A stretch of 64,000 nucleotides of DNA. Origin: Microbacterium sp. SORGH_AS_0969 (lineage in GTDB: Bacteria; Actinomycetota; Actinomycetes; Actinomycetales; Microbacteriaceae). This document shows, piece by piece, positions 6,051 through 21,357 of this stretch. The notes beneath the pieces are model-generated. The model saw nothing but the letters and a program-made list of their open reading frames with translations, did no database searches and was not told the DNA's origin. The DNA lies in assembly GCF_030818255.1 (NCBI RefSeq), contig NZ_JAUTAG010000001.1:1240001-1304000 (forward strand), read 5' to 3'. The translations under genes were made by a program, and so were the position numbers. How positions within the stretch are numbered: position 1 is the stretch's first letter; the number at the start of each line of letters is the position of its first letter.

Positions 6051-8114
6051 ATGGGGGAGAACACCACGGCACGCCGCACGCTCCAGCTCATGCGTCGGGT
6101 TCCCGCGACGCTCGTGCTCGCCGGGATTCTGCTCGTCGTCGGCGTCGTGGGAGCGGGGCTGGGGCATCCGTTCTCCACCTCCGACCTGTTCCCGTCCGTG
6201 GCGTACGGTCTCCCCGCCCTTCAAGAAGGCAGGTGGTGGACTCCGGTCACCGGCACGTTCTTCCTCGACGCGCCGTGGGTGGTCGCCCCGATCCTCCTGG
6301 GCCTCGTGGGCATGGGGTACGTCGAGTACCGCCGCGGCTCGCGGGTCGCCGCGGGGTACTTCGCCGCGGGCCAGCTCGTCTCGGTCCTGGCATCCGCGCT
6401 CTTCCTCTGGGCGGCGGCACTCCTCCCCTGGCCGTGGGCTCAGCAGCAGGCGGCCGTGCTCGATGTGGGCCCCTCGGGCGGCGTCGTCGCGACCATCGCC
6501 GCCGCGGTCTCGCTCCTGCCCTCCCCCTGGCGCCTGCGCGCATGGACCGTGCTGGTGGCCGGGCTCTCCGTGACGCTGATCTACTGGGGCACGCTCCCCG
6601 ATCTCGAGCATGCCTTCGCGGTGGTCTTCGTGCTGATCGTCGACCGTTCGCTGCGCCCGCAGCGGGTGTCGGTGCGCGAGCAACGGCTCATCGCCTTCGT
6701 GGTCGTCTGCGCCCTCGGTGCGATCGAGATCCTGACGTTCTTCAGCCCCACCACCGGCCCCTTCGGGACGTCCGAGCCCGTCTCGGGATCGTGGGTCGAC
6801 GTCGCGGGGAACACGCTGCTGGTGCTCGTCGTCGCGACCGGCATCCGGCGCGGCCGTCGGTGGGCGTGGATCGTGCTCATCGCCTATGCGACCCTCAACG
6901 CAGCGCTGGTTGTTCTGCTGGCCGCGCTGGTGCTCTTCACCGGTGCCGCCGGCGTCGAGGCCGTCTTCGGCGTCGACCTCACGATCACCCTCGCCTCGTC
7001 GCTGCTGTGGACCATCGTCCTCGTCTATCTCGTGCTCATCCGCGCCGCTTTCCGCGCGCGCCCGAAGGCGGCTCTGGGCGAGACGCCCGCCCCCACCGTC
7101 GCCGACGTCAAAGACGAGCTACGCCGATCCGGTGGCGGCACCCTGTCGTGGATGACCACGTGGGAGGGCATGTCGTACGCGCGCTTCGGCCGCGGCATCG
7201 TGGCCTTCCAGCGCCGAACCGGTGTCGCCCTCGCGCTCGGCGACGCCCTCGGCCCCGCGGGCGATCGTCCGCGGGCCGTGCGCGCGTTCATCGACCGAGC
7301 CGAGAGCGCCGGCCTCGCCCCCTGCTTCTTCAGCGCCGGAGAAGAGACACGCGCGGCGGTGCCCGAAGGCTGGCGCAGCATCGTCGTCGCCGACGACACG
7401 ATCGTCGACCTTCCGGGCCTGAAGTTCACCGGCAAGGCCTGGGGAGCCGTCCGCACTTCGCTGAATCGCGGCGAGCGCGAGGGCATGACCTTCCGGCTTT
7501 CCCGCCTCGCCGACGAGACCTGGGGCATCCGACAGCAACTGCGGGCGATCTCCGACAGCTGGGTCGGCGAGAAGGGCCTCCCCGAGATGGGATTCACCCT
7601 CGGCACGCTCCACGAGGCGAGCGATCCCGAGGTGCGGGTGGCGCTCGCGATCTCGCCCGCCGGTGACGTCGACGGCTTCCTGTCGTGGCTGCCGGTGTAC
7701 GGCGAGGGCCGCGTGCGCGGATGGACGCTCGATCTCATGCGCCGACGCGACGGAGGCTTCGGCCCCGTCATGGAGTACCTGATCGGTTCGTCGGCGCTGC
7801 AGTTCTCCAGCGAGGGCGCGGATGTGATGTCGCTGTCGGGCGCGCCCCTCGCGCACGAATATCCCGCCGATGCCGGCCCCATCGCCGACCTGCAGCAGCG
7901 CATGGCCACGATGCTCGAGCCCGTCTACGGCTTCGCGTCCCTGCACCGGTTCAAGGAGAAGTTCCAACCGCGCTACGAGACCATGTACCTGCTCTACCGC
8001 GACGAGGCCGACCTCACGCGAATCGGCACCGCCCTCACGCGGGCGTTCCTGCCGCACGCGACGATCAGGCAGTTCGCCGCGGCCGGCCTCGACCTCATGC
8101 GCCACGAACGCTGA
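6051..8114 (+). CDS. Rhomboid-like membrane domain fused to DUF2156 acyltransferase domain
   Basis: A 687-residue protein in two parts. Residues 15-200 are membrane helices with rhomboid features: GRWWTPVTGTFF corresponds to the loop-1 WR motif, GYVEYRRGSRVAAGYF to the G..lE...G region, GPSGG holds a serine (Ser142) where the rhomboid nucleophile lies, and LEHAFA holds His187 where the catalytic histidine lies. The helix-2 H..N pair is absent (FLDAPWVVAP). More helices follow to about residue 345. Residues 355-687 form a DUF2156 domain like the C-terminus of MprF/LysX lipid aminoacyl transferases, with LSWMTTWEG and SLSGAPLAHE. A role in modifying membrane lipids is likely by family; proteolysis is speculative. 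Confidence 0.82.
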   Translation: MGENTTARRTLQLMRRVPATLVLAGILLVVGVVGAGLGHPFSTSDLFPSVAYGLPALQEGRWWTPVTGTFFLDAPWVVAPILLGLVGMGYVEYRRGSRVAAGYFAAGQLVSVLASALFLWAAALLPWPWAQQQAAVLDVGPSGGVVATIAAAVSLLPSPWRLRAWTVLVAGLSVTLIYWGTLPDLEHAFAVVFVLIVDRSLRPQRVSVREQRLIAFVVVCALGAIEILTFFSPTTGPFGTSEPVSGSWVDVAGNTLLVLVVATGIRRGRRWAWIVLIAYATLNAALVVLLAALVLFTGAAGVEAVFGVDLTITLASSLLWTIVLVYLVLIRAAFRARPKAALGETPAPTVADVKDELRRSGGGTLSWMTTWEGMSYARFGRGIVAFQRRTGVALALGDALGPAGDRPRAVRAFIDRAESAGLAPCFFSAGEETRAAVPEGWRSIVVADDTIVDLPGLKFTGKAWGAVRTSLNRGEREGMTFRLSRLADETWGIRQQLRAISDSWVGEKGLPEMGFTLGTLHEASDPEVRVALAISPAGDVDGFLSWLPVYGEGRVRGWTLDLMRRRDGGFGPVMEYLIGSSALQFSSEGADVMSLSGAPLAHEYPADAGPIADLQQRMATMLEPVYGFASLHRFKEKFQPRYETMYLLYRDEADLTRIGTALTRAFLPHATIRQFAAAGLDLMRHER

Positions 8115-8168
8115 TCGGTCGGACAGGCTGATCGGCCGGACACGGGGATGCCGCCGCGCCCGACCGAA

Positions 8169-8193
8169 TCGACCCCGGGGTCGCCGGGGTCGA
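8169..8193. terminator. Bidirectional terminator hairpin
   Basis: TCGACCCCGG and CCGGGGTCGA pair perfectly over ten bases with a five-base loop. The hairpin lies between the convergent DUF2156 gene and the cold-shock gene, so it can end transcripts from both sides. Confidence 0.65.
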
Positions 8194-8197
8194 GGGA

Positions 8198-8404
8198 TCA
8201 GAGGGGGCGGATGTCTTCCGCCTGCAGGCCCTTGGGGCCCTGCGCGATCTCGAACTCGACGCGCTGGTTCTCTTCGAGAGAGCGGTAACCGCCCGACTGG
8301 ATCGCGCTGTAGTGCGCGAAGACGTCCTGCCCGCCGTCATCGGGCGCGATGAAGCCGAAGCCCTTCTCCGCGTTGAACCATTTGACCGTGCCCTGCGTGC
8401 TCAT
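8198..8404 (-). CDS. Cold-shock domain protein, CspA family
   Basis: A 68-residue single cold-shock domain that binds single-stranded RNA and DNA. Both RNA-binding motifs are present: KGFGFI (RNP1) and DVFAHYSAI (RNP2). The start could be ATG 8404 ([10 protein letters not shown]) or ATG 8410 two codons earlier; GGAAAA lies at a workable distance from either, and the shorter form matches the usual family N-terminus. The promoter is probably TACTTT at 8457-8462 on the minus strand, giving a leader of about 45 bases. A strong hairpin lies further upstream. Confidence 0.93.
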
Positions 8405-8456
8405 CGACATGCCGTTTTCCGCTTGAGCCGGCACCGAGCGCGCCGGACTTGCCCCA

Positions 8457-8462
8457 AAAGTA
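8457..8462 (-). promoter_or_regulatory. Possible -10 hexamer TACTTT for the cold-shock gene
   Basis: TACTTT on the minus strand about 53 bases before the ATG at 8404. No clear -35 sequence is seen. Confidence 0.35.
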
Positions 8463-8533
8463 GCGTCCGCGTCGAAACGGTGCACGAACCCGTGACACAA
8501 ACGTTGCATGCCGAAACGGGGCCGAAGCCCATA

Positions 8534-8572
8534 CGACGCCCGGGCTGAGCAGAGCTCGAAGCCCGGGCGTCG
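8534..8572. repeat. Perfect 13-base inverted repeat between divergent genes
   Basis: CGACGCCCGGGCT (8534-8546) and AGCCCGGGCGTCG (8560-8572) are exact inverted copies with a 13-base spacer. The site is in the divergent gap between the cold-shock and GntR genes, so it is not a normal terminator position. It could be a protein-binding palindrome, or an RNA hairpin if either transcript starts further out than proposed. The rest of 8411-8712 shows only the promoters listed. Confidence 0.55.
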
Positions 8573-8699
8573 ACGGATCCCCCCGGATATGTCACGCGAG
8601 GCGTGACGGTGATGACATTACAGCCGCAGAAGGCCTCCGCGCGACATGAAAGCTGTGAATACGTAACGCAAAGTCCGAGACTGTGATAATCGCGCGACG

Positions 8700-8705
8700 T
8701 AGACT
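8700..8705 (+). promoter_or_regulatory. -10 hexamer TAGACT, leaderless start of gntR-family gene
   Basis: TAGACT ends seven bases before ATG 8713 and no ribosome-binding site is present. Confidence 0.5.
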
Positions 8706-8712
8706 CCGCGTG

Positions 8713-9321
8713 ATGAGCGCTCCACGGTCTCGGTTGGCCCTCGTCGATGAGGCCTACGCGGCCCTCGGCGAGGCCATCGTCGACGGCCGCCTCCGCCCCG
8801 GAGACCGTCTCCGTGACGTGGAGCTGGCCGCGTACATGGGCATCTCACGAACGCCCGTCCGCGAAGCGCTGCAGAAGCTCCAACGCATCGGTCTCGTCGA
8901 GGTCGCCGCGAACCGTTATACGCGCGTCGCCGCGCTCACCGACCGCGCCCGCACCGACATGCGCGAGTACGCCGCGCACAACATCGCGTCGGCGATGCGC
9001 GTCGCGCTGCCGCGCTGCACCCCCGAGGAGATCGAGACCGCCCTCACCCTCATCGACGCGATGCGCGACGCCGACTCCTCGAAGACGTACGTGGCCGCTG
9101 TCCTGGACCTGTATGCCCTCATGGTCGCGGCTTCGCACAACATCCCCTTCCAGAGGACGCTGGAGCAGACCGACCTCGTCCTGCGGCGAAACCTCGAGGG
9201 GTGGGAGAGCATCACGGGCGACACCAGAGCCACGCTGTTCGCGCATCTGCGCACGCAGCTTGCCGCGCGCGACGCGAACGGCGCGACGTGGACCTTCCTC
9301 GCTCTGCACGGCTTCGCCTGA
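8713..9321 (+). CDS. GntR-family transcriptional regulator
   Basis: A 202-residue regulator. The N-terminal winged helix-turn-helix spans about residues 8-75, with the family hallmarks VDGRLRPGDRL, MGISRTPVREAL and LQRIGLVEV. The C-terminal half is helical and resembles an FCD-type ligand-binding domain, though short. It would bind DNA as a dimer and respond to a small metabolite. The target is unknown; autoregulation of its own leaderless promoter, perhaps through the nearby inverted repeat, is a reasonable guess. The start at 8713 is supported by the TAGACT hexamer. Confidence 0.88.
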   Translation: MSAPRSRLALVDEAYAALGEAIVDGRLRPGDRLRDVELAAYMGISRTPVREALQKLQRIGLVEVAANRYTRVAALTDRARTDMREYAAHNIASAMRVALPRCTPEEIETALTLIDAMRDADSSKTYVAAVLDLYALMVAASHNIPFQRTLEQTDLVLRRNLEGWESITGDTRATLFAHLRTQLAARDANGATWTFLALHGFA

Positions 9322-11395: not shown

Positions 11396-11401
11396 TAGCG
11401 T
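11396..11401 (+). promoter_or_regulatory. -10 hexamer TAGCGT, leaderless start of DUF368 gene
   Basis: TAGCGT ends seven bases before ATG 11409. The in-frame GTG at 11400 overlaps the hexamer and is rejected as the start. Confidence 0.55.
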
Positions 11402-11408
11402 GGACCGA

Positions 11409-12326
11409 ATGGCCGACACCCTTGCCGACCGACGTTCACCTCTCCGCCCCGCTCTCGATGTGGTCCGCGGCGCCCTGATCGGGGCGGTGGAAGTCATCCC
11501 GGGGGTCAGCGGCGGAACCGTCGCGCTGATCGTGGGGGTGTACGCGACGCTGATCGACGCCGCGAGCCATATCGTGCGAGGCACGGTCGCGGTGACCGAC
11601 GTCCTGCGCGGACGTGGATTGGCGCGCAGCGCCCGCCATTTCCGGGCCGTCCGTTGGCGTGTGGTGGCCCCCGTGCTCGTCGGCATGGTGCTCGCGGTCG
11701 TGCTGGGTGCGCGCATCCTCGCTCCGCTGGTGCAGGAGTACCCGACCGAGACGCGCGCGGTCTTCGGCGGCATGATCGCGGCGTCCCTGCTCATCCCGAT
11801 CCGCCTGCTGGGCCGCGAGTGGAAGTGGCGGCTGGGCCTCCTCGCGCTCGTCGCCGCCGCGGCGGCTTTCTTCCTCACCGGCCTGCCCTCAGGTTCCGTC
11901 GAAGACCCGCCGCTCGTCGTCGTCGCGCTGGCGGCTTCGGTCGCCGTCTGCGCCCTCGTGCTGCCGGGGCTCTCGGGAGCGTTCCTGCTCCTCGTCTTCG
12001 GCCTCTACGAGACGACGCTGGTCGCCCTGAACGAGCGCGACATGCCCTACATCCTGGCCTTCGCCGTCGGCGCGGTCGTCGGGCTCAGCCTCTTCGTCAA
12101 CGTTCTGCGCCTTCTCCTGGCGCGGTTCCACGCGGGCATGCTCGCCCTGATGACGGGGCTGATGCTGGGCTCCCTCCGCGCGCTCTGGCCCTGGCAGGAC
12201 GACGCCGGGCAGGCCCTCGCACCCTCGGACGAGATCGCTCTCCCGGTGCTCCTCGCAGCGGCCGGTGCCGCGGTGGTACTCCTGGTGGTGTGGATGCAGG
12301 CGCGGCTGACCGCGAAACCTTCCTGA
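11409..12326 (+). CDS. DUF368 family membrane protein, polyprenyl-phosphate translocase-like
   Basis: A 305-residue integral membrane protein with eight or so hydrophobic helices. The family signature EVIPGVSGGTVALIVGVY sits near residues 25-42, and the second-half counterpart is VLPGLSGAFLLLVFGLYE. DUF368 proteins (PopT type) have been shown to return undecaprenyl phosphate across the membrane for reuse in wall synthesis. That role is taken from the family, not from anything seen here. It is the last core gene before the accessory island; an inverted repeat 40 bases downstream probably ends its transcript. Confidence 0.87.
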   Translation: MADTLADRRSPLRPALDVVRGALIGAVEVIPGVSGGTVALIVGVYATLIDAASHIVRGTVAVTDVLRGRGLARSARHFRAVRWRVVAPVLVGMVLAVVLGARILAPLVQEYPTETRAVFGGMIAASLLIPIRLLGREWKWRLGLLALVAAAAAFFLTGLPSGSVEDPPLVVVALAASVAVCALVLPGLSGAFLLLVFGLYETTLVALNERDMPYILAFAVGAVVGLSLFVNVLRLLLARFHAGMLALMTGLMLGSLRALWPWQDDAGQALAPSDEIALPVLLAAAGAAVVLLVVWMQARLTAKPS

Positions 12327-12440: not shown

Positions 12441-12457
12441 CCCCTCGCGCACAGATG
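12441..12457. repeat. 17-base inverted copy of the tRNA-Leu 3' end
   Basis: CCCCTCGCGCACAGATG is identical to the minus-strand sequence covering the 3' end of tRNA-Leu(CAG) and its flank (complement of 21268-21284). It directly adjoins the left 74-base repeat. It may be a remnant of recombination at the tRNA. Confidence 0.5.
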
Positions 12458-12530
12458 GGGGACTTTCCCCACCGCCCCTCCACACGCCGCTGCGCGGCGC
12501 GCGGAGCTTCCGGCGGCGTGGGCCCAACCC
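12457..12530. repeat. Island repeat, left copy (74 bases)
   Basis: This 74-base block matches 19888-19961 with four mismatches, in the same orientation. It starts GGGGGACTTTCCCC and ends GGGCCCAACCC. Internally CACGCCGC and GCGGCGTG can pair, so it can fold as a stem. The two copies enclose the NTPase and nuclease-like genes. Confidence 0.75.
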
Positions 12531-12558
12531 GAACGTGCCCAACCCCGCCCCTGCCCAG

Positions 12559-12604
12559 ACAACGACGAAAGGCCCCGGGAAAACCCGGGACCCTTCTTCG
12601 TTGT
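12559..12604. terminator. Long hairpin, terminator-like
   Basis: Two 21-base arms starting ACAACGACGAAAGG and ending CCTTCTTCGTTGT pair around an AAAA loop with three mismatches. The core GAAAGGCCC..GGG resembles the terminator beside tRNA-Leu. No gene reads directly into it; it may have come with a lost tRNA or gene. From 12605 to about 12930 I see nothing else that can be called. Confidence 0.45.
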
Positions 12605-12929
12605 GTGAGTCTGTACCGAAATCCCAGAGCCCTTCAAAGGGTTGCGCCGCCGGTGGCTTGCAACAGCGACACGGTGAGCGTAGGCCTGGACGTTTGACCG
12701 TCAACCGGGCCCCTCAGCTGCCAGTCTTCACATTGACCGTCCCGTCGGTGCGCTCAAAGAGCGAGGGCCGGTTACAGCTCAGCCAAACCGAGCATGCCTC
12801 GCAGAGCGGGTGTCACATCCGGAGGGGCGTTGACCGGTGCCTTGGCGTGCACGGTTCTCGGCGACTGGGAGGGGGCGCCACCGCGGGGGAACTCACGTCG
12901 GTGGTCGCATCCGAGGGAGAGCTCCTTCA

Positions 12930-13358
12930 CGTCCCAGCTTGATGACGGCTTCGCTCGGGCCCTGTTCTGTCAGCGCAAGCGCCAAGGCAGTCGGATCGTC
13001 GCTGGCCACGGTGATGCGTGCCTCGTCTGCGCCAGCGAAAACGACATCCGCGAGAGCGAGGAGCTCTCGTTAGACCGGGTTCGGGTTGCGCTCGCCCCAG
13101 ACTTTGGAGCGGTGGTTCACGTCGAACGAGATGCGGATTCCTACGCGTCTGGCGGTTCGTGCGACCTCTAGAGCGCATTCGGCCGCGGACTCCCGCGGAC
13201 CCGGGAGTATTCCTGTCAGGTGGACGAGATCGGCGTGCTCGATGAGCTCTGCCGGCATATCGACGGGGCGCAGAACTGAGGCGGCGCTTCCTGCCCTCCA
13301 GAACGAGACGGTCGATGTGTGGGTGGTGCGTCGGTGCTTGTGCATGAACCCGGTGGGC
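12930..13358 (-). pseudogene. PfkB-family sugar kinase fragment (KdgK-like)
   Basis: The minus strand encodes the middle of a PfkB kinase related to 2-dehydro-3-deoxygluconokinase. Recognisable pieces are RPTGFM, FWRAGSAAS, DLVHLTGILPG, ISFDVNHRSKVWGERN, LADVVFAGADEARI and VIKLGREGAL. An in-frame TAA at 13070-13072 interrupts it. The N-terminal third is missing at about 13358 and the C-terminal GAGD catalytic region is not found. It lies head to head with the dehydrogenase fragment, and both lose their 5' parts at the same place. Further down this strand, a frame ending TPALRGMLGLAEL at about 12776 may be another unidentified remnant. Confidence 0.72.
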
Positions 13359-13359
13359 C

Positions 13360-13812
13360 GGACGGGACATCGTCGAGGTCTCTGCTGTCGGATCCGCCTT
13401 GTTCGACGACGGCGCTCGCGAACACGGCGACTACGACACCGCGGTCACCACCTTGCGGAGCGGAAGCGGCGCCGTGGTCACCATCATTAACTCCCGCCAC
13501 AGTGCTTCCGGGTACGACCAGCGACTGGAGGCGTTCGGCGCCGAAGGGCAAGTCAGCGTCGACAACGCGCACCTGAGCTTGGTGAGCCGCTCATCCTCTA
13601 CCGCCACGTCGATGCGGTCCCCGCACCAGAGCTTCTTCCTCGACCGTTACGCCTCCGCCTACCGCGCTGAGCTCGCAGACTTCGTGGGCCTCATCCGAGG
13701 GGAGGCCTCGCACGCCTCCACCTTCGAGGACGGGCGTGCAGCGCTCATCCTCGCCGACGCAGCCCTCGCCTCGGCGGCCGGCGCGGGAACGGTTGCCGTC
13801 AACCTCAGCTGA
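13360..13812 (+). pseudogene. Gfo/Idh/MocA dehydrogenase 3' fragment (inositol 2-dehydrogenase-like)
   Basis: About 150 residues of the C-terminal half of an IolG-type NAD-dependent dehydrogenase, starting near DIVEVSAVGSALF and including DTAVTTLRSGSGA, NSRHSASGYDQRLEAFG, FLDRYASAYRAELADF and EDGRAALILADAAL. The whole Rossmann-fold half and the start codon are missing. The frame is open to its natural stop at 13812. Together with the opposing kinase fragment it suggests remains of an inositol or sugar-acid catabolism locus cut by a deletion or inversion near 13360. Confidence 0.72.
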
Positions 13813-13823
13813 AATATGGCCGC

Positions 13824-13852
13824 GGGTTCCGGTCAACAGACCGGGCCCGCGC
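13824..13852. terminator. GC-rich hairpin after the dehydrogenase fragment
   Basis: CGCGGGTTCCGGTC and GACCGGGCCCGCG pair around a short loop with a small internal mismatch, 15 bases after the pseudogene stop. Confidence 0.4.
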
Positions 13853-13939
13853 TGCTGCTTCGGGGCGCCCAAACGGCCGATGTCGCCACCCCTCAGTAGG
13901 TTTGCGAGAAGCGCGTTTCCGCGCGCGCACATCTGGGGG

Positions 13940-16900
13940 ATGGGGTTTCACGTGGCAGCCACGGCAAGGGAAGGCGGTTGGTTCGTCGTCGACGCACCAA
14001 TCAAGACCGCCGATCAGGATGCGTTCGGTCACGAAGATGTCGCAGACAATCTGCACCGAATGGTGACCGAGCCCACACCGCATCGCCGCATGGTCGGCCT
14101 GTTCGGGCAATTTGGTGTCGGTAAGAGCACCGTGATCGAGTTGCTGCGCGCCAAGCTCAACGGGAACAAAGATCTGACGCTCATTCGCATGTCGGCCGAA
14201 CGCCACGAGCCGGTCGGGTTCCACCGGGCGGCGGTTTACGCCTTCGCTGAGGCCCTTGTTGAGGCCAAGGAGATCTCGAACAGCACCGCCCAGGAGGTGC
14301 TTGAGCCTCTCAGAAGTGCCCAATCCACGTCTTTCTCCGACATGACACTGTCCACCGTCGGACGCGCGGTCACCCAGATGCAGAAGGCGTTGAACGTCAA
14401 CTGGGTGAAGTTCTGGGGGATCTTGGTGGGCGCGGTCCTGCTCGCGGCCCTCGTGCTCGGCCTCGGCGCCGTTCTTATCCCTCCTGCGGTCTGGACCGGG
14501 CTCGGTGGCTTCCTCACCCCGCTGCTGACGGCTGGTGCCTTCTTCGCCCCGTTTATCTGGCTGGCCAGCGTGATCGACCTGGGCCCCATCGACCTCCGCG
14601 GGATCTTCACTCCCGGTACGCGCAGCTTCCAGCGCGCGAAAGTCGAAGCAGCGGACGAGCAAGAACGCGCCTTCGCCGAATTGGTGGCGAAGTCCAAGCA
14701 CCGCCTGATTGTCGCCGTTGACGACATCGACCGCCTCTCACGGGATCAGATCCTGGCGGCCCTGAACGCGATCCGCAGCTTCCAGCTCACCTGCGGCCGG
14801 GCAAAGCAACCCATCTTCATCGTCGCTATCGACGAGCAGATCGTTCGCTCCGCCATCGAAGAGGACAAGGAAAAGACCACCCCCGACGCCCAGGAGTTCC
14901 TCAACAGGCTGTTCACGCTTCGGCAGGAGGTACCCGTCCACGAGACCTTCGACCTGCGTGACTACGCCCGTGACCTCCTCACCGAACGGGCTTCCCTGCT
15001 CGCCGCCAAACTCGGCGAGGCGGTCGAAGACGTCCTCCTGATGCTCATCCATGACGACGTCAGGGACCCCCGCCACGTTGTTCGCCTCATCAACGCCTTC
15101 AGCAGCGACTACAGGCTCGCCGAGGCGCGCGAGGCACGTCCGGGCTCGCGCTCGATAAGAGCCGGCGTGGTCACAGGCCACCTCGACGTTCTCGCGCGGA
15201 TGGTGGTCTTGAAGACCGATTACCCGCAGTTCTTTCGTGCGACTCTGGACGACCAAGGGCTGATCACGGCCGCCTCCCGGGCGTCCTCGCTCGACCTGGG
15301 CGACGAGGAACACCAGTTCCTCGTCGCCCAGGGCTTCGGTCCCGGGTTGCCGAGACACGCATCCCTCTTTCGCTACCTGTCCCGCACCGCAGGGTGGGTC
15401 GAGGAGGGCATCGACCTGACGCCCTTCCTTTATCTCGGCCAGGACCGTTTCAGCCTCACGCTCGGCAATACTCAGGCGCGGGAGATCCGTTCCGCTCTGG
15501 CCAACAATCAGCCCACAGCGTTGGCACGCCTGGGTAACGAAGCTCAGGCCGCTGGGGATGCCGCGACCAACACCTTCCAAGAGCTGACTGTCTCGGTACT
15601 CAGGGAACTCGAGACTGGAGAGCAGAGCAACGGTGTCGCGGCAACACTCGCCGCCGTCCGCACCTGCGAAGCGTTGAAAGGCGCGAAGATCACCCGCGCG
15701 GTCGCTCCGCTCGTCGACAAACACCCCTCCTGGTTGACGGATGTGGTCGGCGCGATCAAGCTGCTCGAGAACGCGGAGGCCGACGCGGCACGCAGCCTCG
15801 CCACCGCGGTGATGAGCGCCGACTCCGCGGCGAGTGACCCCGCGATCTGGGAGAACCGGTCAGAGCTGGAAAGCCTCACGGGCGAGGACAAGTTCGCCGC
15901 CTGGATCGAACGGCGGATCGCCGCCATGATGACGTGGGAGCAGTGGCGGGCGTGGCCCACCAGCGTGCTTGATGATCAGAGCGCCAACTTGATGCTCGCC
16001 CGTGCTGTGCTGCTGGCAGCGCGCGCGGAAGAGGACGACCCCGCAGACGAGAGCGACCTCAAACGGGCAAGAGAGGTCTCTGACCTCATACTCGTTGGCG
16101 CACCCGTCCAAGACGAGGAGGCAATGCAAAAGGCAGTCGCGCAGCCCGCGAACACGTATGAAAGTGCCATCGGTCTGCTCGCGGCGGAGAAGTTCGCGCT
16201 GACCGACAAGCAGCTCGCGGAGCTGTCGTTCACGCACGTGAGCAGAAGCATCAAGGGTGCCGGAGAGGACACCTCGCCACTGACCGCCGTCATGGATGGG
16301 GTCGCCTCTCTTGCACGCCGCACGGCGGAGGAGGCAGCCAGTTGGACGAGCCCTGACCGAAAGACCAAGGTCGCGGCGATCCCGGCGGACCACCTCGCCA
16401 CCTGGATCGGTGACGCCGAGTATCCGCCCTCACGCGGCGTCCCGGTGCTCCAGGCGATGGCGTCACACGGGGTGGCGGGCCAGACCACGCTCGCGACGGC
16501 ACTTTTCAGTGCGTGGGCCGCGGACCCAAACGGATCCGACAATGACGATGTGTCGTTCCGGGACTCAGCTGATCGCGTGATCGCTCTCATCCCTCAGCTG
16601 CAGAACCCGGCGCAGGAAGCAGTGGTGACGACGTGGATCAGCATGCTCGAGGACGACTCCACGCTGCCTGAAGCCATGTCGCTGAGTTCCACGATTCTCG
16701 CCGACACGAGCCCGCCTTTGTGGGCGGACCGGGCGCTCAATGCACTGATGATGTGGTTCAGCACGAGCTACGACTTCACCGGTGTCTACACCGACGCCGC
16801 GGCCGCGGTGATGGCAACCGGTCACGTCAGTCCGGAGGTCGAAGAGTCCCTGTGGTCCCGGTTGTACAGCGTCTCCTCCTCCGGGTCGGTGTATCGACAG

Positions 16901-17758
16901 CGCAGCTTCTCGACGATAGCCAAGCTGCCGTGGGGTGAAGCCATCCTCCCAACGGTGACGGAGAGCGTCGCGTTGTACATGTCGTACGTGGAGCCGACGA
17001 GCTTCTGGGCACTGTTCGACATGCAGCAGATGCACGGGCAGATGAACCAGCAGTTCGTCAACCGGGTCGACGAGATGATCGAAGACGAGGACGATCTCAC
17101 CGCAGCGCGCGCTCGGGTTGATGCCCTGGCAGGCAAGTTGATCCTCGATCATGCGGTCACCCTTGTCCTTGGTGCGACCTCGGCGACTGCCATGGAGGCC
17201 GTCGCCGCGCGATGGGCGGACCCGTCGGGAGGGGCCACTGCGAAGGACGGGGCCAACTGGCTCATCCGCGCGGCCAGGGAGGGGAGCTCCGAGAGCAAGC
17301 GCATGCTCGCCGCGGCCATGGCTGGCGCCGACGCCTCCGCGTACGCCGAAGTCCTGGACGTCCTGCTCGATGAGACGGTGGATCTGGGCAATGGTGCACA
17401 TGCCGACGTGTGGGCGTTCGTCACCGCGCCGATGACCGAGACAGCACGAATCGCGCTCGTGTCGAGGATCCGCCCGTTGTTGACCGAAGCCCAGCGCGAA
17501 GCCATCGCGGTGGCCCCGACCCTCAACGCCGCAGCAACGGACCCGGCGTTCGACGCCCTCGTAGCTGACGACGTGCGCGAAGTCATGGTCCACTGGATCG
17601 TCGACGTCCCGGACGCGTCCGTCGTTGTTGCCGTAGCCGAAGCGATTCGTGGCAGCAAGCGGAGCCACGCGGAGGCCCTCGCGGCTCGCAGGGGACGACC
17701 GAAAATCCCGCAACGCGCGGTCGCCTACGATGCCGCAATGCGAGTGCTCCGCAGGTAA
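13940..17758 (+). CDS. Large KAP-family P-loop NTPase with membrane segments
   Basis: A 1272-residue protein. Walker A is GQFGVGKST (residues about 55-63). A hydrophobic insert at about 155-215 forms two membrane helices, the layout that defines KAP NTPases. Walker B is LIVAVDDIDRL (about 255-265), followed by an AAA/STAND-like segment (ALNAIRSF, FIVAIDEQIV, FLNRLFTLRQEVPV). The remaining 800 or so residues are mainly helical, with no motif I know. Some KAP proteins, such as phage T7-excluding PifA, act in phage defence; others are of unknown role. ATG 13940 is preferred; GTG 13952 is possible and has a better-placed GGGG. Base composition looks lower in GC than the core genes. Confidence 0.85.
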   Translation: MGFHVAATAREGGWFVVDAPIKTADQDAFGHEDVADNLHRMVTEPTPHRRMVGLFGQFGVGKSTVIELLRAKLNGNKDLTLIRMSAERHEPVGFHRAAVYAFAEALVEAKEISNSTAQEVLEPLRSAQSTSFSDMTLSTVGRAVTQMQKALNVNWVKFWGILVGAVLLAALVLGLGAVLIPPAVWTGLGGFLTPLLTAGAFFAPFIWLASVIDLGPIDLRGIFTPGTRSFQRAKVEAADEQERAFAELVAKSKHRLIVAVDDIDRLSRDQILAALNAIRSFQLTCGRAKQPIFIVAIDEQIVRSAIEEDKEKTTPDAQEFLNRLFTLRQEVPVHETFDLRDYARDLLTERASLLAAKLGEAVEDVLLMLIHDDVRDPRHVVRLINAFSSDYRLAEAREARPGSRSIRAGVVTGHLDVLARMVVLKTDYPQFFRATLDDQGLITAASRASSLDLGDEEHQFLVAQGFGPGLPRHASLFRYLSRTAGWVEEGIDLTPFLYLGQDRFSLTLGNTQAREIRSALANNQPTALARLGNEAQAAGDAATNTFQELTVSVLRELETGEQSNGVAATLAAVRTCEALKGAKITRAVAPLVDKHPSWLTDVVGAIKLLENAEADAARSLATAVMSADSAASDPAIWENRSELESLTGEDKFAAWIERRIAAMMTWEQWRAWPTSVLDDQSANLMLARAVLLAARAEEDDPADESDLKRAREVSDLILVGAPVQDEEAMQKAVAQPANTYESAIGLLAAEKFALTDKQLAELSFTHVSRSIKGAGEDTSPLTAVMDGVASLARRTAEEAASWTSPDRKTKVAAIPADHLATWIGDAEYPPSRGVPVLQAMASHGVAGQTTLATALFSAWAADPNGSDNDDVSFRDSADRVIALIPQLQNPAQEAVVTTWISMLEDDSTLPEAMSLSSTILADTSPPLWADRALNALMMWFSTSYDFTGVYTDAAAAVMATGHVSPEVEESLWSRLYSVSSSGSVYRQRSFSTIAKLPWGEAILPTVTESVALYMSYVEPTSFWALFDMQQMHGQMNQQFVNRVDEMIEDEDDLTAARARVDALAGKLILDHAVTLVLGATSATAMEAVAARWADPSGGATAKDGANWLIRAAREGSSESKRMLAAAMAGADASAYAEVLDVLLDETVDLGNGAHADVWAFVTAPMTETARIALVSRIRPLLTEAQREAIAVAPTLNAAATDPAFDALVADDVREVMVHWIVDVPDASVVVAVAEAIRGSKRSHAEALAARRGRPKIPQRAVAYDAAMRVLRR

Positions 17759-17786
17759 CCCCGCCGCGCCCTACCTTCCACGCGGG
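17757..17786. terminator. Hairpin after the KAP NTPase gene
   Basis: AACCCCGC and GCGGGGTT pair around a 14-base loop, overlapping the NTPase stop codon. It is a plausible but weak terminator. Confidence 0.4.
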
Positions 17787-17883
17787 GTTCGGCGAGGAAG
17801 CGGACGGCGGGGCCTTCGGGCCTAGCGGCCGTCGTCGTACAGGCTGAGCAGGAAGGCGATGTGCGAGGTCAGGTCCCCGTCTC

Positions 17884-18282
17884 CAGGGCCCTGACGACCT
17901 CGTTGACGTGCTCATCGACCCCGCCACGAAGAAGGTGGTGGGCGGGAACCCGCTGACGCAGAAAACGTTGCAGTTCGGACCCGACACCAAGGAAGGACGG
18001 AAAGTCTTGAAGAACCTGCAGAACATCGAGGACAAGACCCCCGAATGGAAGGCCTTCTACGGCATGCGTAACCGCGTCGAGGAGAACAACAAGTCGTTCA
18101 AGGGGGACCAAGCCACCGACATCGGCAACCCAGAGAAGCGGCGTCCCCGCGGCTACGCCTACAACGCCCTGTGTGGCGGTGCGGCGGGGGCCATGTCTAA
18201 CATGCGTCGCATCGTCGCCCACATCCATGCCGACGCCCTCGTCACGGTCGAGCACCGCGACAAAACCTCGCCCCTCAATTAG
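17884..18282 (+). pseudogene. C-terminal fragment of a transposase-like protein
   Basis: An open frame without a convincing start (first GTG 17908). The part WKAFYGMRNRVEENNKSFK, followed by GNPEKRRPRGYAYNAL and SNMRRIVA, resembles the C-terminal end of DDE-type transposases, where R.R.E..N..K and a later N..RI are typical. The upstream catalytic region is absent; an in-frame stop lies at 17845. The stop overlaps the convergent island gene by four bases. The family is uncertain, and a small functional protein cannot be excluded. Just upstream on the minus strand, the string LTSHIAFLLSLYDDGR before a stop at 17823 may be another tiny gene remnant. Confidence 0.5.
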
Positions 18283-19526
18283 GTTCGCAGCGTGGAGTCC
18301 AGCTGCGCCCGGATGTGACGCACGTAGTCAGGGTCCAGCTCAAGGTCCCCCTCCATGGCAACCATTGTCGTGTCCCACTCACGAACACCGGGCCGGCCCG
18401 GTGAGAGCAGCACCCCGACGGAGAGCAACTCGCCCACGCCGGTGTCTTCCATGAAGTCGTGATGAGCGAGCTCCACCCTCGCGCGGAAGACCATTCTCGT
18501 CATCTCATCAAGACGAGACGCGACCATCAGCACGACCGGTGATTCGAACGGCCCGGGCTGGGTGGGGAGGTACACGCGGGTGGAGGTGATGAGAGACCGT
18601 CTCGACCACGTTCCCGCCTCTGCCATATAGGAGCGCAGACGCTCACCCAACTCCGTGCGGCCCGCTACGGGTATGCCGTCTAGACGGGACAGCACCTCAA
18701 TCCGGTCCAGCTCCCTCGCTGAGGGGGCCGGAGTGAGGGCGATGTCCTCCTGGATGGATCGAAGCACAAGGTGGGCGTCGGTCGTCTCCGCACTCGCCAC
18801 CTCCAGCGGCGCTGAGGGCATCGGCATGAGAACCGCGGTGTTCGTCGCCCAATGCGGTGTTTCCTGCTCGGGGACGGCCAGATCCGCGAGTGCTAGCTCG
18901 TGATAGCGGACAGGCTCCGTCCCCAACGTCTGCGGTCCACCGACGATCCTCGACAGGTAATGAGCAACCCAACGAGCGGACCTCAGGTGGTTGAACAGAA
19001 ACTCCCAGTCGCGTCGCATCATCACAACCGCGTCCGATGGGAGTTCCGGCGGCACGTACCCCTCCGGTACCGAGTCATGGTCAACGAGCACCACCGACAC
19101 CCAGCTGAGCGCGGCCCCGTCGATGGTCACTTCGCGGCCTCGTCGGTTGGTCATCTGCACCGGCCCCGAACGCAGCCGTCGGATGGAGCCCGCGCCCTGT
19201 CGCAGCCCCTTGGCGATGTTCTTGTCTAACCAGTTGCGTTCTTTGTCGGGAGTACTGCCGACGCCTGACCGCGCCTTCGACTGGATCATCACCGCGACCC
19301 CGCTCGTGATGAGAATGCCGTCGCCCACCTCCCGGACGCCGCTACCGCTGGCCTCATGAGTGGGCTCGAAGATGAAATCCGGCATGCCCCAGAGTGCCGC
19401 CGCAAATCGAATGGCTTCCTCGGCCGCGACTCCGCGTTCGACCCCCTCGGGGAGCGGGGCTGCAGCCGCAACCTCCCGGTGGAGGAGGCCATCGGGCGTG
19501 TCGATCAAAAGCGTGAGCTTGTCCAC
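18279..19526 (-). CDS. Island protein with possible PD-(D/E)xK-type nuclease motif
   Basis: A 415-residue soluble protein. GDGILITSGVAVMIQSKAR (residues 68-86) has the D...(E/Q)xK spacing of PD-(D/E)xK nucleases, with Asp69, Gln82 and Lys84. The next part, RNWLDKNIAKGLRQGAGSIR, resembles the helix that follows such motifs in restriction-like proteins. Nothing else is recognised. The GTG start is fixed by TAGCGT six bases upstream. It is transcribed toward the KAP NTPase gene, separated by a transposase remnant. By position and motif it may be an effector of the same defence-type module, but this is inference. Confidence 0.6.
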   Translation of the reverse strand: MDKLTLLIDTPDGLLHREVAAAAPLPEGVERGVAAEEAIRFAAALWGMPDFIFEPTHEASGSGVREVGDGILITSGVAVMIQSKARSGVGSTPDKERNWLDKNIAKGLRQGAGSIRRLRSGPVQMTNRRGREVTIDGAALSWVSVVLVDHDSVPEGYVPPELPSDAVVMMRRDWEFLFNHLRSARWVAHYLSRIVGGPQTLGTEPVRYHELALADLAVPEQETPHWATNTAVLMPMPSAPLEVASAETTDAHLVLRSIQEDIALTPAPSARELDRIEVLSRLDGIPVAGRTELGERLRSYMAEAGTWSRRSLITSTRVYLPTQPGPFESPVVLMVASRLDEMTRMVFRARVELAHHDFMEDTGVGELLSVGVLLSPGRPGVREWDTTMVAMEGDLELDPDYVRHIRAQLDSTLRT

Positions 19527-19532
19527 GGCTCC

Positions 19533-19538
19533 ACGCTA
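19533..19538 (-). promoter_or_regulatory. -10 hexamer TAGCGT, leaderless start of the island gene
   Basis: TAGCGT on the minus strand ends six bases before GTG 19526. It is followed by GG, as at the core genes starting at 4105, 9371 and 11409. Confidence 0.6.
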
Positions 19539-19792
19539 CGGGGATGCCTGACGAGCGGCTGCCTGCGAGGCCCTGATCGGCCCGATCAAGGCGCACGCGC
19601 GACGGCATTCGCGAGTACTGGTGGGCGGGGAAGCTCAGCCGGGCCTAGGGGGCCTCTTGTGTGAACCGCGGGGATCTCGCGCGCGGGACTGAGAGGCACT
19701 GCGCTGCTTGCTGTGGAGACAGAGCTGTCGCATTTAGCAAGAGATGTCGACGGAGGTCACTTAGGGCCTCGTGTACGGCACGCGCGCCGGAG

Positions 19793-19839
19793 AACAGAAA
19801 TGGCCGATCAGATTTGAAACTGACCGGCCATTTCCTGTT
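19793..19839. terminator. Hairpin in the non-coding part of the island
   Basis: AAATGGCCGATCAG (19798-19811) and CTGACCGGCCATTT (19820-19833) pair with one mismatch; AACAG and CTGTT extend the stem around a bulge. No gene reads directly into it. Apart from this hairpin and the repeats below, 19540-19978 shows no gene. Confidence 0.5.
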
Positions 19840-19877
19840 TACGTACAACTGGGTCTGAATCCAAGTACAGACCCTTG

Positions 19878-19896
19878 TGTGCGCGAGGGGGGACTT
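19878..19896. repeat. 19-base direct copy of the tRNA-Leu 3' end
   Basis: TGTGCGCGAGGGGGGACTT is identical to 21272-21290, the 3' end of tRNA-Leu(CAG), in the same orientation. It looks like an attachment-site remnant. It runs straight into the right 74-base repeat. Without the later insertion sequence the two copies would be about 140 bases apart. Confidence 0.6.
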
Positions 19897-19961
19897 TCCC
19901 CACCGCCTCTCCACACGCCGCTTCGCGGCGCGCGGAGCCTCGGGCGGCGTGGGCCCAACCC
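19888..19961. repeat. Island repeat, right copy (74 bases)
   Basis: Same-orientation partner of 12457-12530, with four mismatches in 74 bases. Its first nine bases overlap the tRNA-Leu 3'-end copy. Confidence 0.75.
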
Positions 19962-19978
19962 AGAATGGGTCCCAAGCC

Positions 19979-21204
19979 GGGTTATAGGCAAGAACGTGTG
20001 GATGGGATGGTGATCTAGCCGCGCGATCACGCGGTGAAACGGGGTTGTGCATGGTCCGCGACGCTTAGGCGTGGACCATCCCTCGAATCAGGCGCTCTGC
20101 GTGATATGCGGTGCTCGGCTGGTGAAGAACGGTAAGACCGCCGCCGGAACACAGCGATGGCGCTGCCCCGACTGCGGCGCATCATCTGTCCGCTCCCGAC
20201 GCGACGTGAGCGAGCGGGAGCAGCTGCGCCGGTTCCTGCGCTGGTTGACGGGCAAAACAACGCAAGCGGAAATCGGCGGCGGAACCGGGCGCTCATTTCG
20301 TCACGACACCGCCTGGTGCTGGGGTCTGCAGCCCGTGATGCCGGTCACCGGCGAAGTTCACGATGTCGTCCTCGTCGACGGTGTCTGGATCGGCTCCTGG
20401 TGCCTTCTCGTCGCCCAATCCGACACCGGACGCGTCCTCGCCTGGCAGTGGTGCGCCCGAGAATCCACCGCCGCGTGGACGGCCCTGTTCGAACAGGTCC
20501 CGCCCCCGGTCGTCGTCGTCACCGACGGCGGTTCCGGCATCCGCTCCGCCCTAGCCACGACCTGGCCCGACACCGCCGTGCAACGCTGCATCTTCCACCT
20601 GCAACTGAACGTCACCCGCGAGCTGACGCGCAATCCCCGCACCCGCGCCGGCCGCGACCTGCGCCAGATCTCCCTCGCGTTGACCGCGGTCCACACCATC
20701 GATGACGCCATCTCCTGGCGGCTCACGTTGCAAGCGTGGTGGCAGACCCACGGGCATCTCACCAAAGAACGCACCCTCTACGCGAACGGGCACTTCGGGT
20801 TCACCCACTTCAAACTCCGCCGAGCCTGGAATGTCCTTCATCGCGCCGCAGAATCAGGGCACGTGTTCACCACTCTCCAGCACGGAAACCCCCGCACCAC
20901 TTCACGCCTGGAGGGTTTGAACAGTCAGATCCGCCACCTTCTGCGCCATCACCGGGGCATGCCCACCGAGCACCGCCGCAAAGCCGTCGAGTGGTTCCTG
21001 CTGCTGCACGAGGTTCCCCTCGAGCGCGCGCACCGGCACGCCATCACGCCCACCCCGCCGGCCACACCCGACGAGCCCGACGACGACGGACAGCCAGCTC
21101 TCTACGACACCGCCGTCACCGCCGAGGAAGGCCTCTGGATCCGAACCGGATGGGCAGGACGGAGCTGACACGCCCGAGCCATCCACACGTTCTTGCCTAT
21201 AAGC
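19979..21204 (+). mobile_element. IS1249-type insertion sequence (IS256 group)
   Basis: The ends carry perfect 24-base inverted repeats, TTATAGGCAAGAACGTGTGG and four more bases at 19982-20005 and its complement at 21179-21202. The 8-base string CCCAAGCC occurs at 19971-19978 and 21205-21212 and is the likely target duplication, giving an element of 1226 bases. It holds one intact transposase gene. It sits between the right island repeat and the tRNA-Leu terminator. Intact ends, duplication and gene suggest a recent insertion. Confidence 0.85.
20047..21168 (+). CDS. IS1249-family transposase
   Basis: A 373-residue transposase. The N-terminus has a zinc-ribbon C..C / C..C (CVICGARL and RCPDCGAS), then a helix-turn-helix-like region. 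The DDE core is visible: VVLVDGVWIGSW (first Asp), VVVTDGGSGIRSAL (second Asp) and the late TTSRLEGLNSQIR (Glu). CIFHLQLN between the second Asp and the Glu is typical of the IS256/MULE group. GTG 20047 is taken as the start; GTG 20071 (VDHPSNQ) is an equally possible start. It should be able to move the element. Confidence 0.9.
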   Translation: MHGPRRLGVDHPSNQALCVICGARLVKNGKTAAGTQRWRCPDCGASSVRSRRDVSEREQLRRFLRWLTGKTTQAEIGGGTGRSFRHDTAWCWGLQPVMPVTGEVHDVVLVDGVWIGSWCLLVAQSDTGRVLAWQWCARESTAAWTALFEQVPPPVVVVTDGGSGIRSALATTWPDTAVQRCIFHLQLNVTRELTRNPRTRAGRDLRQISLALTAVHTIDDAISWRLTLQAWWQTHGHLTKERTLYANGHFGFTHFKLRRAWNVLHRAAESGHVFTTLQHGNPRTTSRLEGLNSQIRHLLRHHRGMPTEHRRKAVEWFLLLHEVPLERAHRHAITPTPPATPDEPDDDGQPALYDTAVTAEEGLWIRTGWAGRS

Positions 21205-21228
21205 CCCAAGCCCTCCCGCTCCCGCAGA

Positions 21229-21271: not shown

Positions 21272-21273
21272 TG

Positions 21274-21357
21274 TGCGCGAGGGGGGACTTGAACCCCCAC
21301 GCCCGTGAAGGCACTGGCACCTGAAGCCAGCGCGTCTACCTATTCCGCCACTCGCGC
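21274..21357 (-). tRNA. tRNA-Leu(CAG)
   Basis: The minus strand folds as a class II tRNA of 84 bases: acceptor GCGCGAG pairing with CTCGCGC, anticodon stem CTGGC/GCCAG around loop TTCAGGT giving anticodon CAG, a long variable arm, and a T-arm with GGTTCAAGTCC. CCA is not encoded. The 3' end is duplicated at 19878 and, inverted, at 12441, which marks it as an integration target for the neighbouring island. Confidence 0.93.

Follow-up and report, generated by a model that had tools for sequence, protein, structure and literature searches.

A KAP-family NTPase and a predicted QxK nuclease in a tRNA-Leu island of Microbacterium: most likely independent accessory genes

Introduction

Do a KAP-family nucleoside triphosphatase (NTPase) and a nuclease-like protein, encoded next to each other in an accessory island of Microbacterium sp. 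SORGH_AS_0969, work together as one anti-phage module, or are their genes independent? The island lies in the window analysed here, a stretch of 64,000 nt covering positions 1,240,001-1,304,000 of the 3.94-Mb genome. A preliminary description of this DNA had proposed that the two proteins form one module. We found that homologues of the two genes do not occur together in the other genomes and loci searched, and the two are most likely independent accessory genes. The explanation that we favour, with confidence a little better than even, is that the tRNA-Leu island brought in two independently working genes, one for a Tmn-like membrane NTPase and the other for a lone nuclease of restriction fold. 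The genes in question, and the fragment between them, are as follows.

13952..17758, + strand: KAP-family NTPase, 1268 amino acids (aa), identical to database entry P0054
17908..18282, + strand: fragment of 124 aa, C-terminal part of a longer protein family; no family model matches it
18279..19526, − strand: predicted PD-(D/E)xK (QxK) nuclease, 415 aa, with E36, D69, Q82 and K84

Co-occurrence of the two genes

Homologues of the nuclease were collected as 60 loci, of which 38 are about 21 kb long and the rest are cut by contig ends. None of the 60 carried a KAP gene when 36 KAP proteins were used as queries, and the KAP loci L075, L076 and L077, which served as positive controls, were detected in the same search. 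A KAP profile run over the whole genomes of other nuclease carriers gave no match in 33 genomes (0/12 and 0/21, the latter set being 20 genomes reached through the loci plus G086); the three known KAP genomes used as controls were all matched. Likewise, the nuclease was found in 0/3 other KAP-carrying genomes of the genus, and among 295 genomes of the genus both genes are present together only in this one. Within the island, the KAP and nuclease open reading frames (ORFs) are convergent and separated by the 124-aa fragment, which belongs to an unrelated protein family. The preliminary description had made its proposal depend on homologues of the two genes occurring together. Because they were not found together outside this genome, the two-gene module was rejected.

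The nuclease-like protein

The 415-aa protein had no match in any family library searched, and a literature search found no paper about this family, although this does not prove that there is none. In the homologue searches for the nuclease and for KAP, scoring was limited to the candidates that shared the most words. In an alignment of 36 of the 53 nuclease homologues, E36, D69 and K84 are kept in 36/36 rows and Q82 in 35/36. The D69, Q82 and K84 motif is present as first described. Strands at residues 70-74 and 77-85 and helices at 31-47 and 93-119 were found, with a conserved acidic residue and the xK lysine on neighbouring strands. The confident model resembles the cleavage domains of FokI and Nt.BspD6I, consistent with the restriction-endonuclease-like fold that had been predicted. 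Because of the conserved E36/D69/Q82/K84 and this model, the assignment of the protein as a predicted nuclease, by fold and motif, holds, and it would cleave nucleic acid in a metal-dependent manner. A nuclease profile compared with PDB sequences gave a single match (E 0.11), which was taken as chance, and comparison of the profile with one Mrr-like neighbour revealed no relation.

The nuclease gene was found in 2 of the 295 genomes of the genus, in 2/396 of the order sample, in 8 of 72,556 plasmid records and in 1 of 50,697 phage records, the last being an unannotated fecal scaffold. The homologue on that scaffold (L084, positions 8001-9182 of MT835530.1, an unverified human-gut phage scaffold) shows 34% identity. 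Four of its neighbouring ORFs were scanned, of which one is an rve-type transposase, one is glycosyltransferase-like and two are unmatched, and because of these neighbours the phage nature of the scaffold is unsure. In viral contigs, 45 pattern matches for the nuclease turned up, none of which was confirmed. In another locus (L009, 9995-14261), a T5orf172 gene (PADLOC PDC-S57) and a gene whose Mrr_cat match is sub-threshold come after a close nuclease homologue; this locus resembles a small defence island.

The KAP NTPase

The KAP ORF spans 13736-17758 on the + strand and encodes 1340 aa from the first GTG and 1268 aa from 13952; the length of 1272 aa given previously corresponds to a start at 13940. 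Its assignment to the family was borne out by Pfam KAP_NTPase (E 4e-23; 82.5 bits, against a curated cut-off of 20). Walker A is at residues 52-59 and Walker B at about 253-258, and the membrane insert reported between them is recognizable as a pair of hydrophobic stretches, close to residues 158-176 and 190-208. In an alignment of 35 of the 36 KAP proteins, two segments exceeding a mean hydropathy of 1.3 were seen in 35/35 rows covering the region (34 different proteins). From about residue 410 the protein is helical, as a HEAT-like solenoid. It represents a KAP-HEAT subfamily whose helical region is large and sensor-like.

No dedicated defence model was matched by the KAP protein over its full length, and its best PADLOC stretches correspond to the NTPase part. 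It occurs in 4 of the 295 genomes of the genus, its own included, with a partial and broken copy in G056, and in 1/396 of the order sample. Seven plasmid records matched it, over 18-23% of its length, and no phage record did. In G292 (L076, contig 163, 2932-7291) a KAP homologue adjoins tRNA-Ser, and about 0.9 kb past its other end there is a HipA-like gene; the KAP subfamily is thus found at a second site linked to a tRNA gene.

The island and its boundaries

The features of the island and its flanks are listed below.

11400-12326, + strand: VCA0040-like (undecaprenyl phosphate translocase-like) gene, Pfam E 7e-63
12454..12530, + strand: left copy of the 77-nt repeat, probably ancestral sequence from downstream of tRNA-Leu
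12606..21211: accessory DNA of the insertion, with an IS1249 copy that arrived later; the left edge is the end of the short-site alignment
13070..13345, − strand: possible PfkB-like kinase fragment, Pfam E 0.018, below cut-off
13399..13812, + strand: GFO/IDH/MocA oxidoreductase C-terminal fragment (remnant), 137 aa, Pfam E 8e-7
19878..19896, + strand: 19-nt sequence identical to the tRNA-Leu 3' end, resembling an attachment site and marking the inner edge of the island
19885..19961, + strand: right 77-nt repeat copy
19979..21205, + strand: IS1249-family insertion sequence, NCBIfam E 1e-109, with 27-nt terminal inverted repeats
21273..21357, − strand: tRNA-Leu (CAG), the insertion target

The VCA0040-like gene and tRNA-Leu(CAG) are separated by 8947 bp in the window and by only 479 bp in G024 (L081), which belongs to the same genus. 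On the left, the flanking sequence in the window can be aligned to this short site up to 12605, a point only a few bases away from the tRNA 3' end, and includes the aligned segment 12484-12605; on the right, alignment begins at 21212 and runs into the tRNA. Because the short site aligns with both flanks, about 8.5 kb would have entered at the 3' end of tRNA-Leu, in agreement with the tRNA-linked accessory island described before. This comparison is based on one genome among three relatives holding the VCA0040-like gene; in the other two, G035 and G026, no tRNA was found inside the 1.5 kb fetched on either side of that gene. The VCA0040-like gene itself was detected in just 4 of 39 genomes of the genus, its own included (E ≤ 1e-40), so the flank of the island is itself accessory.

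The 19-nt sequence has three exact copies genome-wide, and the other two are the 3' ends of tRNA-Leu(CAG) and tRNA-Leu(GAG); 0.05 matches would be expected in shuffled windows with up to 3 mismatches. The boundary signal is the tRNA 3' end rather than the 77-nt repeats. The flanking repeats of the preliminary description are real, being 77 nt rather than 74 nt long and 94% identical to each other, but they are not specific to the island. They belong to a dispersed family with 11 places in the genome, the window's two included, which marks DNA downstream of tRNA genes. Among the nine places outside the window six were examined; in five cases a tRNA gene is no more than about 0.9 kb away, and for three of the five it is one and the same tRNA-Gly. 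Part of the repeat sequence is also found 3' of tRNA-Leu in G024. Because the repeat has 11 places, its copies were set aside as attachment sites in favour of the tRNA 3' end. The repeat family is GC-rich and palindromic and follows several tRNA genes on their downstream side (Leu, Gly, Ser); it is possibly a tRNA-linked intergenic element.

The island is small, accessory and partly decayed. Of the metabolic gene remnants reported earlier, the GFO/IDH/MocA fragment was confirmed but the PfkB-like fragment fell below the cut-off. The 124-aa fragment had been called a transposase remnant, a label that no library searched supports, the long form of its family (562 aa in L112) having been checked with Pfam only. 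Relatives of this family are present in 12 of the 295 genomes of the genus, its own included, and the fragment matched no plasmid record. A full-length IS1249 transposase ORF (20047-21168), absent from the preliminary description, is located between the right repeat and the tRNA, and the IS1249 copy sits between the 19-nt tRNA-end copy and tRNA-Leu. No integrase was recognised by Pfam among the scanned island ORFs, and because of this the island looks immobilised.

Possible roles of the two genes

How might the two genes work independently? By analogy with Tmn, the KAP protein would be a single-gene, membrane-anchored NTPase switch: its helical solenoid may sense a signal of infection, the NTPase, perhaps as a ring, would change state, and the membrane hairpin may deliver the response. 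The N-terminal half of the nuclease would cut nucleic acid at a metal-dependent site composed of D69/Q82-x-K84 with E36, and its C-terminal half would probably provide recognition or control. The nuclease would then be a lone effector, with defence as its most likely role. A defence role is plausible for both genes because of their patchy distribution, the tRNA island and the restriction genes near some homologues.

To characterize the neighbourhood, genes were called mechanically by script, and proteins of at least 90 aa nearest to the nuclease were taken from 52 of the 60 loci. L019, L051, L060, L062 and L068 had been dropped beforehand as near-duplicates or for having no called gene, and three more had no usable neighbour. 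At E ≤ 1e-30, 22 PADLOC families (10 names) were matched by these 91 proteins and 4 by 91 background proteins, which came from 17 stretches in 10 carrier genomes.

Several points weigh against the favoured explanation. Genes about 9 kb away from the nuclease (87 proteins) gave 40 PADLOC families at E ≤ 1e-30, and at 1e-5 the nearest genes (127) did not differ from the distant ones (126), so the neighbourhood does not single out defence. A Foldseek search for the nuclease against the PDB found no match at E ≤ 0.001, and only realignment brought out the likeness to known folds. The sensing and membrane steps of the KAP protein are suggested by analogy only. Finally, an association of nuclease homologues with arsenic-resistance-like genes speaks for another role in that branch of the family.

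This association was seen in 11 of the 60 nuclease loci (L012, L013, L035, L037, L043, L045, L046, L048, L051, L053 and L055; 10 after dropping one, as L043 and L051 are alike) and in none of the 17 background stretches, a cluster being counted where two or more kinds of gene from the set ArsR-like, Acr3-like, arsenate-reductase-like and flavin-monooxygenase-like (FMO-like) lay within 10 kb. Our early view that the nuclease has no conserved neighbours was wrong for this subset, and because of this our confidence in the favoured explanation was lowered slightly. It is conceivable, though rather unlikely, that the role of the nuclease family is in stress or metalloid resistance rather than defence, and that as part of arsenic clusters it may process damaged nucleic acid. 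In L012, L013, L037, L046 and L055, a monooxygenase-like match on the same strand ends about 30-110 bases before the nuclease start, and on a 60-row tree the arsenic link requires at least 5 gains or losses, both of which favour such a role. However, the link is confined to Streptomyces (several clades) and Amycolatopsis (one clade), was not seen in the other 49 loci, several of which are cut short by contig ends, and no arsenic-resistance-like genes were found in the window. Moreover, Pfam tallies support the labels ArsR and FMO but the Acr3 and arsenate reductase labels are readings of the sequences, and the link could reflect shared mobile cargo. Arsenic-resistance-like genes also occur about 7 kb from the partial KAP gene of L077.

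Either gene might instead be a non-defence passenger, such as an enzyme of repair or of a mobile element, or a membrane NTPase with a different function. No dedicated defence model was matched by either protein along its length, and the commonest Pfam groups among the nearest neighbours of the nuclease are flavin-type oxidoreductases and acetyltransferases. The patchy distribution, the tRNA island, the intact reading frames and the restriction genes near some homologues argue against this, and we consider it improbable. A combined explanation is also doubtful: the nuclease would be an undescribed family of lone restriction-fold (QxK) enzymes, found mainly in Actinomycetota, that moves as cargo of a single gene, has been built into arsenic clusters on more than one occasion and serves both phage defence and metalloid stress, and the KAP protein would be an undescribed membrane-anchored KAP-HEAT defence NTPase spreading alone. 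One membrane-linked anti-phage module of a KAP sensor and a QxK effector nuclease is highly improbable, since, although the two genes are intact and adjacent in one island and the qatABCD operon is described as containing QatA (KAP) together with the predicted nuclease QatD (excerpt of PMC13279940), KAP was absent from 33 other nuclease-carrying genomes under three positive controls, the nuclease was absent from the three other KAP carriers (one with the broken G056 copy), and the genes are convergent with an unrelated fragment between them.

Thus, the proposed two-gene system is removed. What is left is a well-conserved nuclease-like family that has no entry in the libraries searched and recurs in arsenic-resistance-like clusters, together with the KAP subfamily, whose helical region is extensive and sensor-like. 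Each gene can be tested singly.

Comparison with known systems

Tmn is a single-gene system. In the excerpt of PMC11846954 it is described as a KAP NTPase that has two transmembrane domains and blocks several phages, its mechanism being called unexplored. The window's KAP protein has a KAP-family NTPase and two membrane segments in common with Tmn, a likeness drawn by description; no model named Tmn was among its PADLOC matches at E ≤ 1, and the Tmn content of PADLOC was not checked. With PifA and QatA it shares the KAP domain (PADLOC PifA E 8e-21, QatA E 2e-13). QatA is stated to bind DNA and to form heptamers or octamers (excerpt of PMC13279940). The window protein differs from both in that its best matching stretches are the NTPase part, and it reaches only 59 bits against the NCBIfam cut-off of 600 for QatA. 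No qatBCD-like gene was seen among the ORFs scanned beside the KAP gene, which comprise gene fragments, the nuclease and IS1249. RdrA (RADAR) and the Avs/STAND NTPases have only the fold in common with the KAP protein, in which a membrane insert separates Walker A from Walker B and no fused effector was recognised.

The 415-aa protein shares 5-10% identity with FokI-, Nt.BspD6I- and HindIII-type nucleases and has a different C-terminal half, and no methyltransferase was recognised beside its gene here. It also differs from restriction nucleases of the PD-(D/E)xK type, whose usual motif is ExK, in having QxK in its place.
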